Notes under the pieces: model-generated
Databases searched by the model: none
The model's input: only the letters and a program-made list of their open reading frames with translations
Told to the model about the DNA's origin: nothing
Source: Paenibacillus terricola
GTDB taxonomy: Bacteria > Bacillota > Bacilli > Paenibacillales > Paenibacillaceae
DNA: 64,000 nucleotides
Direction: 5' to 3'
NCBI RefSeq assembly: GCF_014779765.1
Contig: NZ_JACXZA010000004.1
Span: 496,001-560,000 of the forward strand
Position numbers and translations under genes: made by a program
Shown: piece after piece, positions 13,649-41,373 of the stretch
How the letters are laid out: every line of letters begins with the position of its first letter
Position numbering within the stretch: the first letter of the stretch is position 1

Positions 13649-14485
13649 ATGATCCGCCATCATTCCTATTATTCGGTTGATAGTAACGACGCTTCTGTTT
13701 CTTCTTCTTCTAAACTCGCACAACCGCGGCGCCGCCGCTTCGCATATCGTCCGATGTATGGTTACTTGATTCTCGCTGTTTTCGTTATCCTCATGAGCTG
13801 GGAGCAGGTGCGCACCGACGCATCCGCGATTGAGGGAGCTATTCCGGATCAATCGATCCGACTTCGCATCCTGGCGAATTCCGATGCACCTGCTGACCAA
13901 GCAGTGAAACGCCATGTACGCGATGCGGTCGTCGAAGCCATGAACAACTGGGTGAGCGGTCCTGCGACAATCGACCAAGCTCGCGCAACGATCAGCAGCC
14001 ATATGGGCGAGATCGAGGCGGTCATCGCTCACGAGTTGGAGATTCGAGGTTTCGATTACGGGTTCAAGGCAGAGCTTGCAATCGTCCCGTTCCCGACCAA
14101 AATGTACGGCAGCCGCGTCTACCCAGCCGGTGACTACGAAGCGCTCCGCATTACGCTCGGCAAAGGCGCAGGTCAGAACTGGTGGTGCGTATTGTTCCCG
14201 CCGCTGTGTTTCGTAGATGCAGCTACCGGTGAAGCAGAGCCGGCACAAGCAGAGGCCGCTGTCGACCAAGCAGATAGCAAATCGTCGAAAGCCGAAGGCA
14301 AGGCAGAAGCGAAGACAGCCAAAGCGGACACGAAAGAAGCGCCAGTCAAGAATGCCAAAGCAGATGGCCAAGTGAAGAAAGCAGACGATCAACAAGCACA
14401 ATCCGGCCAAGCGCCAGAAGCGAAGTTTTTCCTGGTGGAATTGTTTGAAGCAATCATTCGTTTTTTCCATAACTTGTTTTCTTAA
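13649..14485 (+). CDS. spoIIR: Stage II sporulation protein R
   Basis: SpoIIR is made in the forespore, secreted into the intermembrane space, and triggers SpoIIGA-dependent processing of pro-sigma-E in the mother cell. After a basic N-terminus and one membrane segment (about residues 34-52), the conserved domain is clear: SIRLRILANSDAPADQAVK, VRDAVVEAMN, and YEALRITLGKGAGQNWWCVLFPPLCF. The 278-residue length exceeds the usual 200-230 because an Ala/Lys/Glu-rich linker (about 190-255) precedes a hydrophobic C-terminal helix. The ATG lies nine nt after AGAGGGG; a GTG two codons earlier is too close. A sigma-F-like promoter precedes it. Confidence 0.95.
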   Translation: MIRHHSYYSVDSNDASVSSSSKLAQPRRRRFAYRPMYGYLILAVFVILMSWEQVRTDASAIEGAIPDQSIRLRILANSDAPADQAVKRHVRDAVVEAMNNWVSGPATIDQARATISSHMGEIEAVIAHELEIRGFDYGFKAELAIVPFPTKMYGSRVYPAGDYEALRITLGKGAGQNWWCVLFPPLCFVDAATGEAEPAQAEAAVDQADSKSSKAEGKAEAKTAKADTKEAPVKNAKADGQVKKADDQQAQSGQAPEAKFFLVELFEAIIRFFHNLFS

Positions 14486-14582
14486 AAGCAATTTGCATTA
14501 TCCTCGAAACTGCTTACCTGCCAGCAAATTGCTTGCATCGTAAGCATACACTCAGCATTCGCCATTTCCATTAACGAACCCC

Positions 14583-17073: not shown

Positions 17074-17171
17074 TCCAGTCGATCTGGAAAGTGCGCTGTT
17101 GCGCTGATTATGGGCTGTTAAGGATTGATTTTGGCTGCCGGATCAGGTATGATGAAGACAAATTTAACGGT

Positions 17172-17241
17172 TTCCGATGTAACTGGCGACGAAGTGGGAT
17201 ACCACGGTGGAGCATCGGAATATACGGCCGGTCGCCTGGGC
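17172..17241 (+). promoter_or_regulatory. ZTP (pfl) riboswitch aptamer
   Basis: An 8-bp P1 (TTCCGATG/CATCGGAA) encloses the invariant ACTGGCGA, a short GTGG-GATA-CCAC hairpin and GTGGAGC. A linker then leads to the second conserved module GCCGGTCGCCTGGGC. GGCGA (17185-17189) and TCGCC (17232-17236) form the expected pseudoknot. The ZTP riboswitch senses ZMP/ZTP, which accumulate when 10-formyl-tetrahydrofolate is short. Here it heads the unit ending in glyA, a one-carbon donor gene that is a known ZTP-switch target. A terminator follows directly, so ligand binding is expected to allow read-through. Confidence 0.9.
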
Positions 17242-17279
17242 AAAGAGCATCGCGCGTTGAGCGCGTTATGCTCTTTTTT
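17242..17279 (+). terminator. Terminator of the ZTP riboswitch expression platform
   Basis: AGAGCAT-CGCGC pairs with GCGCG-TT-ATGCTCT (two-base bulge), followed by TTTTTT. It begins at the last base of the aptamer, as expected for a transcription-control platform. Confidence 0.88.
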
Positions 17280-17325
17280 GCTTTTAATCAGGTAATAATC
17301 AGGTGTTTGCTGGTGTCGATAGGTG

Positions 17326-17354
17326 TCGTGTATTGCGGGCAAATTAGGTATAAT
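17326..17354 (+). promoter_or_regulatory. Possible internal promoter between riboswitch and tandem repeat
   Basis: A perfect TATAAT (17349-17354) is present but the -35 region (TCGTGT) is poor. If active it would make rpiB transcripts that carry the tandem repeat but not the riboswitch. Confidence 0.35.
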
Positions 17355-17396
17355 AAGTGCGGACTGGTTTCTGAAATTTATAGTTATCGCAAAAAA

Positions 17397-17543
17397 GTGT
17401 ATGCTTCCGATGCGGCTTTTGCTGCATGTCACACCAGAGGATGGGTGTGAGGCTGACGCAAAATCTTAAAGCGTATGCTTCCGATGCGGCTTTTGCTGCA
17501 TGTCACACCACAGGTTGGTGTGAAGCTACCGCAAAATCTTAAG
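17397..17543 (+). repeat. Tandem 74-nt structured direct repeat in the rpiB leader
   Basis: Two adjacent copies (17397-17470 and 17471-17543) share 38 identical bases at their 5' ends and the tail CGCAAAATCTTAA. Each can fold as a three-way junction: a closing G(C/T)G/CGC helix, a 7-bp hairpin ATGCGGC-TTTT-GCTGCAT, and a 7-bp hairpin TCACACC/GGTGTGA whose loop differs between copies while the stem is kept. The second copy runs into the rpiB ribosome site AAGGAGG. The period is not a multiple of three and there is no open frame, so a regulatory RNA is more likely than coding sequence. I do not recognise it as a known family. Confidence 0.8.
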
Positions 17544-17556
17544 GAGGGTTTTCACC

Positions 17557-18015
17557 ATGAAAATCTCGATTGGGGCCGACCACGGCGGCTACCGCTTGAA
17601 AGAAATTTTGGTTCCGTTCATCGAATCGCTTGGCCATGAAGTGACGGACGTTGGCTGCAGCTGCGACCAATCCGTTGACTACCCAGACTATGCGCTTCCG
17701 GTTTGCGAAGCAGTAGCGAACGGTCAAGCTGACCGCGGCATTCTGATCTGCGGTACAGGCATTGGCATGTCGATCGCAGCGAACAAAGTTCGCGGCATCC
17801 GCTGCGCGCTCGTACATGATATGTTCTCGGCGCAAGCAACGCGCGATCACAACGACACGAACGTGTTGGCAATGGGCGAGCGAGTTGTTGGTCCTGGCGT
17901 AGCGCAAGAAATTATTCGCATCTGGCTCGAAACGCCATTCTCCAATGGCGAGCGCCATGTCGGTCGCATTAGCAAAGTAAAAGAAATCGAAGCGAAATAC
18001 GCGGCGCAAGTATAA
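17557..18015 (+). CDS. rpiB: Ribose-5-phosphate isomerase B
   Basis: RpiB interconverts ribose-5-phosphate and ribulose-5-phosphate in the pentose phosphate pathway and so feeds PRPP and nucleotide synthesis. The ADHGG motif (Asp8-His9) and the catalytic Cys65 in ICGTGIGMSIAANK are intact, and 152 residues is the usual size. AAGGAGG directly precedes the start. It is first in rpiB-ywlG-glyA, downstream of the ZTP riboswitch and the tandem repeat. An allose/galactose-6-phosphate isomerase role is possible for the family but synteny favours RpiB. Confidence 0.95.
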   Translation: MKISIGADHGGYRLKEILVPFIESLGHEVTDVGCSCDQSVDYPDYALPVCEAVANGQADRGILICGTGIGMSIAANKVRGIRCALVHDMFSAQATRDHNDTNVLAMGERVVGPGVAQEIIRIWLETPFSNGERHVGRISKVKEIEAKYAAQV

Positions 18016-40368: not shown

Positions 40369-41373
40369 ATGAGCGAGCGTCAGGATGATGCGAAGGAACT
40401 GAAGCCGGGGGAGCCAAGCGAAGCGGAAGGAACGGCGGAGGTACAGGCTGTGAGTGATGCAGCTGGAGCGGAGGGCATGACGGAGGAGAAGGCCGCGAGA
40501 GATGCCGATGGAGCTGATGGCACGACGGAGGAGAAGGCTGTGAGAGGTACTGCTGGAGCGGAAGACACAACGGAGGAGAATGCCAAGAGCGATGCGGTGA
40601 TGGAGGCGGGCAGCGCAGTTGTAGGCGAAGCCACAGCTGGAGCAGTCGCGGAAGCGGGCACAGAAGGCGGAGCGACGGCGCAGGCGACCGCAGCGGCGGA
40701 TGCGGAGCTGTCGGCGAAGCGCCAAGCGGCGGCCGAGGCGAGAGCAGCGCGCGCAGCAGCGAAGGCTGCAACGGAAGCGGGCAGCGCCGAGGGGGCGTCT
40801 GCGCCGGCAGTGCCAGCCGAGCGGCCTGCACGGGCGCCGCGCGCCGCTGCTGGGGCCGCGGCCGATGCCGCGCCGTCTGCGCCGAAGGAGCCGTCGCCGC
40901 TGCAGCCGCAGCTGGATGCGGCAGCGGCGCTTGTCCTCGAGCTTGTGGACGCGGACGCCATTGAGGAGGCCTATGTGAACGAGCTTGGCTCGCACATGCC
41001 GACGCTCGTTATCCGTCCGCCATATCTTCGGCGGATAGCTGAGCTGTTCCATGCGCATGAGTCGCTGGGGTGCACATATCTGCGCAACGTATCTGGCGTC
41101 GACTACGAGACGCATATGGAAGTTGTCTATTACATGGTGAATATGACGAGCGGCCAACGTTATGCGCTGAAGGCGCGTGCTGACCGCAGCAATCCAGCGC
41201 TTGATTCCGTAACCCCTGTGTGGGAGACGGCCAACTGGAACGAGCGTGAAATATACGATCTGCTAGGCATTCATTTCCACGGTCATCCTGATCTGCGGCG
41301 CATTATGATGCCGGACGACTGGATCGGCCATCCGCTGCGCAAAGACTACGAGCCGCTTGATCCGGAGGTGTAA
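40369..41373 (+). CDS. nuoC: NADH-quinone oxidoreductase subunit C with long Ala-rich N-terminal extension
   Basis: The C-terminal part (from about residue 180) is the 30-kDa quinone-module subunit, including NWNEREIYDLLGIHFHGHPDLRRI and PLRKDYEP. The first 178 residues are an unusual Ala/Glu/Gly-rich low-complexity extension. It includes three tandem 15-residue repeats (residues 27-41, 42-56 and 57-71; pattern A-x-x-D/G-x-x-G-A-E/D-x-x-T-E-E-K/N) and an Ala/Arg stretch near 118-135. Total length is 334, about twice the usual NuoC. It is separated from nuoB by three nt and probably translated from this ATG. Confidence 0.93.
   Translation: MSERQDDAKELKPGEPSEAEGTAEVQAVSDAAGAEGMTEEKAARDADGADGTTEEKAVRGTAGAEDTTEENAKSDAVMEAGSAVVGEATAGAVAEAGTEGGATAQATAAADAELSAKRQAAAEARAARAAAKAATEAGSAEGASAPAVPAERPARAPRAAAGAAADAAPSAPKEPSPLQPQLDAAAALVLELVDADAIEEAYVNELGSHMPTLVIRPPYLRRIAELFHAHESLGCTYLRNVSGVDYETHMEVVYYMVNMTSGQRYALKARADRSNPALDSVTPVWETANWNEREIYDLLGIHFHGHPDLRRIMMPDDWIGHPLRKDYEPLDPEV

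Follow-up and report, generated by a model that had tools for sequence, protein, structure and literature searches.

A probable dispersing structured repeat in the leaders of rpiB and other genes of Paenibacillus terricola and its relatives

Two tandem units stand before rpiB in Paenibacillus terricola, and we favour, by a narrow balance of probability, the reading that they are copies of a structured repeat that disperses, duplicates in tandem and owes its retention in leaders to selection on the RNA fold. The units belong to a family whose distribution can be followed across genomes, with a stem that covaries, a place just before the Shine-Dalgarno sequence (SD), and presence or absence at orthologous leaders. 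As such repeats precede the SDs of many unrelated genes, what they suggest is less a switch for one sugar gene than a layer of gene expression that has been overlooked.

Within the window (the whole 64,000-nt stretch of P. terricola DNA analysed), the leader runs from a promoter-like TATAAT through two 74-nt units and an SD to rpiB; because the promoter-like hexamer stands upstream, the units lie in the probable 5′ leader of the gene. A TATA-like hexamer occurs in 66 of the 69 rpiB leaders read, and rpiB homologues were found in 78 of 148 family genomes at E ≤ 1e-40. A sequence-only reading had described two adjacent copies at 17397–17543 with a period of 74, an identical run of 38 nt and the common tail CGCAAAATCTTAA, all of which we verified in the sequence. 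It had also let copy 2 stop at the rpiB ribosome site, and unit 2 (17471–17541) indeed abuts the SD AGGAGG (17542–17547). The third hairpin keeps its stem TCACACC/GGTGTGA between copies while its loop differs, as had been noted, and the CGCAAAA reported 5′ of copy 1 is present (17388–17394), a possible relic of an older copy. Each unit has a conserved box and then a stem whose sequence varies freely (P2, enclosing the hairpin P3), followed in most cases by TTTTAGGAGG with a start codon; its short tail ends in TTTTAG, TTTCAG or TTAAG. The features are as follows:

17349–17354, plus strand: −10-like TATAAT of a predicted promoter, 5′ of the units (sequence)
17388–17394, plus strand: partial tail CGCAAAA, possible relic of a further unit (sequence)
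17397–17470, plus strand: unit 1 (sequence, folding, unit collection)
17397–17413, plus strand: box of unit 1, one mismatch to the consensus (sequence)
17417–17422, plus strand: 5′ strand of P2 of unit 1, TTTTGC, partner 17458–17463 (P2 stem scoring)
17429–17450, plus strand: P3 hairpin of unit 1, TCACACC/GGTGTGA (sequence and folding)
17458–17463, plus strand: 3′ strand of P2 of unit 1, GCAAAA (P2 stem scoring)
17471–17541, plus strand: unit 2, directly 5′ of the SD (sequence, folding)
17471–17487, plus strand: box of unit 2, exact consensus (sequence)
17491–17496, plus strand: 5′ strand of P2 of unit 2, TTTTGC, partner 17531–17536 (orthologous P2 pairs covary at hpt)
17503–17523, plus strand: P3 hairpin of unit 2 (CCGCC/GGCGG instead in G001)
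17531–17536, plus strand: 3′ strand of P2 of unit 2, GCAAAA (P2 stem scoring)
17542–17547, plus strand: SD of rpiB, AGGAGG (sequence)
17557–18015, plus strand: rpiB, the gene led by the units (open reading frame and homologues)

When the 177-nt stretch was used as query, it retrieved a second tandem pair, diverged to 77% identity, in front of a Gfo/Idh/MocA gene of the same genome, as well as many shorter matches elsewhere in it, centred on one 17-nt box with the consensus GCGTATGCTT[A/C]CGA[A/T]GC. Allowing up to three mismatches, the box has 236 matches in the P. terricola genome, against 120 for the reversed pattern. Its exact 15-nt core, GTATGCTTMCGAWGC, occurs in 20 of 59 relatives and in 218 of the 394 Paenibacillaceae genomes searched, covering 15 of 19 genera. 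When named genomes were scanned for a 19-nt version of the box, 78 of the 80 matches listed came from Paenibacillus or Paenibacillaceae; as far as searched, the family thus appears nearly confined to Paenibacillaceae. The profile of box conservation is biased, and its high values are partly due to the collection of units by similarity to the box. Arrays range from one to at least five tandem units (five at locus L180), with inner units continuing as CTTAAGCG or CTAAGCG; the shortest units, of 39 nt, comprise only the box and AAGTTTTGC TTC GCAAAACTT (L173). Tandem units with the same box and different hairpins occupy the sipS leader of P. terricola (L062).

Rfam does not recognise the element, as the sequence-only reading had supposed: covariance-model searches with Rfam 15 at the family gathering cut-offs gave no family for the units in the window, nothing appeared at the units up to an E-value of 5 in positions 17080–17600, and the elements of 20 related loci matched no family either. 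In open PMC literature we found no description of the element, and five box strings were absent from it. A transcriptome study of P. riograndensis compared long 5′ UTRs with Rfam, and the available part of that report does not mention such an element (PMC5670726).

Among the 80 named loci listed, 43 lead into an SD, a start codon and an open reading frame according to our script, a test that 6.0% of random positions pass. The others comprise 22 copies of an AGCTTTC-type repeat, two sites before 5S rRNA and 13 loci scored as "other", of which L129, L183 and L197 resemble leaders by eye. Where a box is near, TTT precedes AGGAGG at 25 of 30 starts, and where none is, at 1 of 92; since this combination is nearly restricted to starts near a box, the TTTAG tail goes with the element. 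In the P. terricola genome the script placed the element in the leaders of 20 unrelated genes, a few of them with weak stems of 5, and two further leaders (L030 and L043) likely bear it as judged by eye.

Thirty downstream proteins (19 from the genome itself, one from G001 and ten from the named set) were scanned against Pfam, and 28 received families, among them PurS, phosphoribosyltransferase, gyrase-B type, nitrate reductase alpha, histidyl-tRNA synthetase type, TerC, RNase PH, GrpE, both signal peptidases, SecG, HemD, FolB, transporters and a phage tail sheath. No shared pathway was seen among the scanned genes, judging by these 28; genes outside the scanned set carry the names that we presume from their protein sequences. 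In another species (G143), tandem box-stem units also lead a gene whose beginning resembles glyA (L248). The window also holds a solitary box-stem unit with one mismatch on the minus strand (14484–14551), lying antisense just behind a spoIIR-like gene and without an SD.

In Paenibacillus sp. H1-7 a box-stem unit lies directly 5′ of two 5S genes. An association with 5S rRNA as a rule was rejected, as it was seen at two of the four distinct 5S genes read in H1-7, where 12 were found, and at none of eight in three other genomes (30 loci fetched, 11 readable by the script). By eye, a reverse complement resembling the box is seen in the spacer before 5S rRNA at L381 and L391 (G127).

From their place directly before a pentose-phosphate gene, the units had been proposed to form a cooperative riboswitch or translation-control element, and tandem structured units are indeed what this leader contains. 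Yet the element precedes 20 unrelated genes in P. terricola, which leaves a riboswitch for a pentose-phosphate gene unsupported, and the association with one pathway that it implies was not found among the 30 downstream proteins scanned; two of the downstream genes seen are 5S genes. Even at rpiB, a box with at most two mismatches is present in only 5 of 69 leaders (G000, G001, G023, G094, G104), with ambiguous three-mismatch matches in four more. Both the stem and the inner loop vary freely. The recognised riboswitch of the rpiB operon is a separate element, a ZTP riboswitch (RF01750, 57.6 bits) at 17169–17248, upstream of the units, which the sequence-only reading had missed; its terminator lies, by eye, at about 17245–17279, and its core motif occurs in 65 of the 69 rpiB leaders of the family. 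We therefore give a metabolite riboswitch made of these units next to no credence. Two genes downstream of rpiB, still within the window, lies glyA. In the hisZ leader of P. terricola the element follows an apparent T-box terminator (by eye); standing downstream of a T-box-like terminator at hisZ and of the ZTP terminator at rpiB, it would constitute a further layer of control.

The stem is the part of the unit on which comparative evidence bears most directly. Fold z-scores reached −3.28 for the 74-nt unit and −3.22 for the 73-nt unit, with one and none of 200 shuffles as good. Of 92 boxes selected without regard to any stem, 83.7% are followed, 0–3 nt on, by the start of a helix of 7 or more, compared with 4.5% of shuffled sequences and 5.5% of positions taken at random, and among 186 collected units 133 have a P2 of at least 6 (1.6% of shuffles). 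In an alignment of 30 units (A3), all eight P2 pairs show changes on both sides, with 25 such cells vs 5.9, and none of 500 shuffles matched the observed share of paired cells or the covariation score; the alignment leans towards good stems because its units, including one from the glyA leader of G143, one each from hpt of G004 and G002 and one from parE of G001, were hand-chosen and mostly well formed. The compensatory change between species for which the sequence-only reading had called is therefore seen, and as judged from these alignments the stem behaves like that of a conserved structured RNA.

Orthologous hpt leaders from six species of one genus follow the same stem through replacement. 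Here P2 reads TTTTGC/GCAAAA, TTAAGC/GCTTAA (with a G-U pair in one species) or TTATGC/GCATAA, its strands 25 to 40 nt apart, and is kept through all three versions. All 36 P2 cells are paired; in paired cells and in score, 2 of 500 shuffles do as well. Two pairs changed on both sides, a number reached by 178 of 500 shuffles of these six sequences. The enclosed hairpin P3 is rewritten as well and beats shuffles in four of the six species, P. terricola and G004 excluded; it was judged outside the MAFFT alignment (A2) because that alignment put P3 of G003 and G004 out of register. The box of hpt in G003 is degenerate. At rpiB, unit 2 of G001 has CCGCC/GGCGG where P. terricola has CACACC/GGTGTG.

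The sequence-only reading had folded each copy into a three-way junction. This is the predicted minimum for copy 2, but the best comparative pairing is P2 and not the closing helix described, and the best-supported pairing, TTTTGC (17491–17496) with GCAAAA (17531–17536), excludes the first hairpin of the junction. A leader could act as a two-state switch, set by a ligand or factor, between the junction, which leaves the SD free, and the P2 fold, in which the box can reach the SD. The junction is the predicted minimum, and both folds are predicted, for rpiB, Gfo/Idh, parE of P. terricola and G001, and hpt of G002, G004 and G005 (three of five hpt units). The counts on junction helices, free folds, box-SD pairing and single bases of S1 refer to the 141 of 186 units with a P2 of at least 5, 45 having been dropped. 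In the units from P. terricola and the family the junction helices exceed shuffles (24/63 vs 10.1% and 29/59 vs 16.2%), whereas in the named set one is absent (4/58, control 8.1%) and the second is slightly above its control (17/56 vs 15.6%). Among SD-proximal units the free minimum-energy fold is the P2 fold in 40 of 74 and differs in 34, beating it by more than 2 kcal/mol in 19. Minimal units, moreover, are a box with a plain hairpin, and box-SD pairing overall does not exceed that of shuffled boxes. In these models P2 is the safe part of the fold, and a two-state switch, though possible, seems to us quite improbable.

With regard to that pairing, the CTTCC in the second copy is complementary to GGAGG of the SD, as had been suggested, but this does not generalise, since it needs a C at box position 11. 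When P2 was forced, at least four SD bases paired with the box in 40 of 74 units, against 48% for shuffled boxes, with 30 of 31 units carrying C and 5 of 37 carrying A at that position; C is not clearly commoner in SD-proximal (31/74) than in inner units (22/67). We rejected the box as a general anti-SD, shuffled boxes pairing as often, and leave the C form as a possibility. Likewise, pairing of the box with 16S, 23S or 5S rRNA was rejected, 12–75% of shuffled boxes matching equally. The box core is mostly paired rather than single-stranded in the fold predictions, and a pairing of box and inner loop (S1) of at least 6 occurs in 36 of 115 units (7.5% of shuffles), with a weak base-by-base result (p 0.026, one unit per gene). 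Predicted openness of the SD was 0.45, against 0.38 in shuffled leaders, and higher in 41 of 62; the models lend slight support to an insulation of the SD by the stem.

Presence of the element changes between close relatives. Within the genus, it is found at rpiB, hisZ, secG and terC in G000 and G001 and is absent from G002–G005; at parE it occurs in four of six species, at purS in G000 only and at hpt in all six. At purS, G001 reads ATTC followed directly by CTTTAGGAGG, whereas P. terricola reads ATTC, then AAGCGAATGC...CAAACC, then CTTTAGGAGG. TTTAGGAGG is likewise present in the five purS relatives that lack the element; as this string is otherwise rare where the element is missing, the empty sites could be losses or the original state, with one gain as the simpler account. 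Units before different P. terricola genes are 72–88% alike in 46 of 190 pairs, which makes a spread of copies from gene to gene probable.

The same box and hairpin are also carried by intergenic repeat types. G294 has 74 exact cores, and among the 30 loci read 28 are one intergenic repeat and two are leaders; by eye, this repeat (L402–L431) is about 100 nt long, and its inverted outer ends AGAAACGG/CCGTTTCT enclose the box-hairpin. Another repeat type of P. terricola, with GTTCAAAAAGT-like ends, contains the box at L010, L018, L019, L020, L022 and L026. A search for the Y1 transposase PF01797 gave no match in the P. terricola genome and so no mobilising enzyme, and the leader units have no obvious terminal inverted repeats, nor was a target-site duplication established at orthologous leaders. 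A viral origin was rejected, with a single match among viral contigs and no SD-type unit visible after it. Elsewhere in the window, positions 40422–40580 hold a 45-base tandem repeat in 3.5 copies.

Dispersed, patchy copies, a G294 sample made up mostly of one intergenic repeat and palindromic stems of arbitrary sequence are what one would expect of a REP- or MITE-like repeat acting at the DNA level, without RNA function, whose stems are kept by mutation, for instance through template switching that repairs imperfect palindromes. We regard this as unlikely: more than half of the named loci listed stand in sense just 5′ of an SD and start, the long-range stem at hpt survives three versions, and the box core is kept at orthologous places. 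Somewhat better placed, though still a minority reading, is a true regulon in which one RNA-binding protein or antisense RNA reads the box and controls all the genes, with movement minor. It would account for a box core that stays constant where stems are rewritten, in the sipS array and among hpt orthologues, and for the retention at hpt in every species compared. It fits less well with scanned genes that share no pathway, with patchiness inside one genus and with copies in intergenic repeats, and no box-reading factor was identified.

Several known systems resemble the family in part. MIRU repeats of mycobacteria are tandem dispersed units near gene starts and are likened to the element here by this arrangement. 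The 5′ stabilising hairpins of Bacillus mRNAs, such as that of aprE, are single, gene-specific stems shortly before the SD; a stem near the SD is common to both, whereas the element here recurs as a family, in tandem units that share a conserved box. Nearest in manner, by analogy of arrangement only, would be the BOX-type interspersed repeats of Streptococcus pneumoniae, which in the available part of their description are small and dispersed near genes, vary in their number of tandem modules, are predicted to fold as RNA and reportedly affect the expression of genes downstream; in the element studied here, by contrast, the box is fixed, the stem sequence free, and many copies lie directly 5′ of an SD (PMC3049150). 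REP/BIME elements with their RAYT transposases likewise, in the parts of the reports available, form short hairpin repeats in many copies, sometimes in arrays (PMC2817692, PMC3733652), but P. terricola lacks the Y1 transposase by our search and the conserved part here is the 17-nt box. Tandem riboswitches share repeated structured leader units, as far as the accessible text goes (PMC9481103); the genes here are metabolically unlinked, and there is no conserved aptamer core beyond the box.

In the favoured reading, that of a dispersing repeat kept by its RNA fold, new copies would be made when DNA moves or is copied, would lodge between promoter and SD, and would be retained through selection on the fold. 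Place and selection on the stem suggest an action on translation or mRNA stability: most likely, the stem a few bases 5′ of the SD would protect the leader from nucleases and insulate the SD. The constancy of the box at orthologous sites points to a binding factor, for which the box would be the contact site and tandem units would supply several; units with C at box position 11 could in addition pair the box with the SD, lowering translation. More tentatively, and with slightly less confidence than we give to the regulon, the family might be a new class of mobile RNA that controls translation: an element of Paenibacillaceae that takes up position at ribosome-binding sites, where its box docks a putative factor, tandem copies tune the gene and control of housekeeping genes is rewired between species.

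Over half of the 394 Paenibacillaceae genomes searched contain the exact core, which also stands before genes usually regarded as housekeeping. If functional, the element would represent a family-wide layer of post-transcriptional control, and genes that bear it in some species and lack it in others offer a ready natural experiment on how dispersing repeats turn into regulatory RNA.
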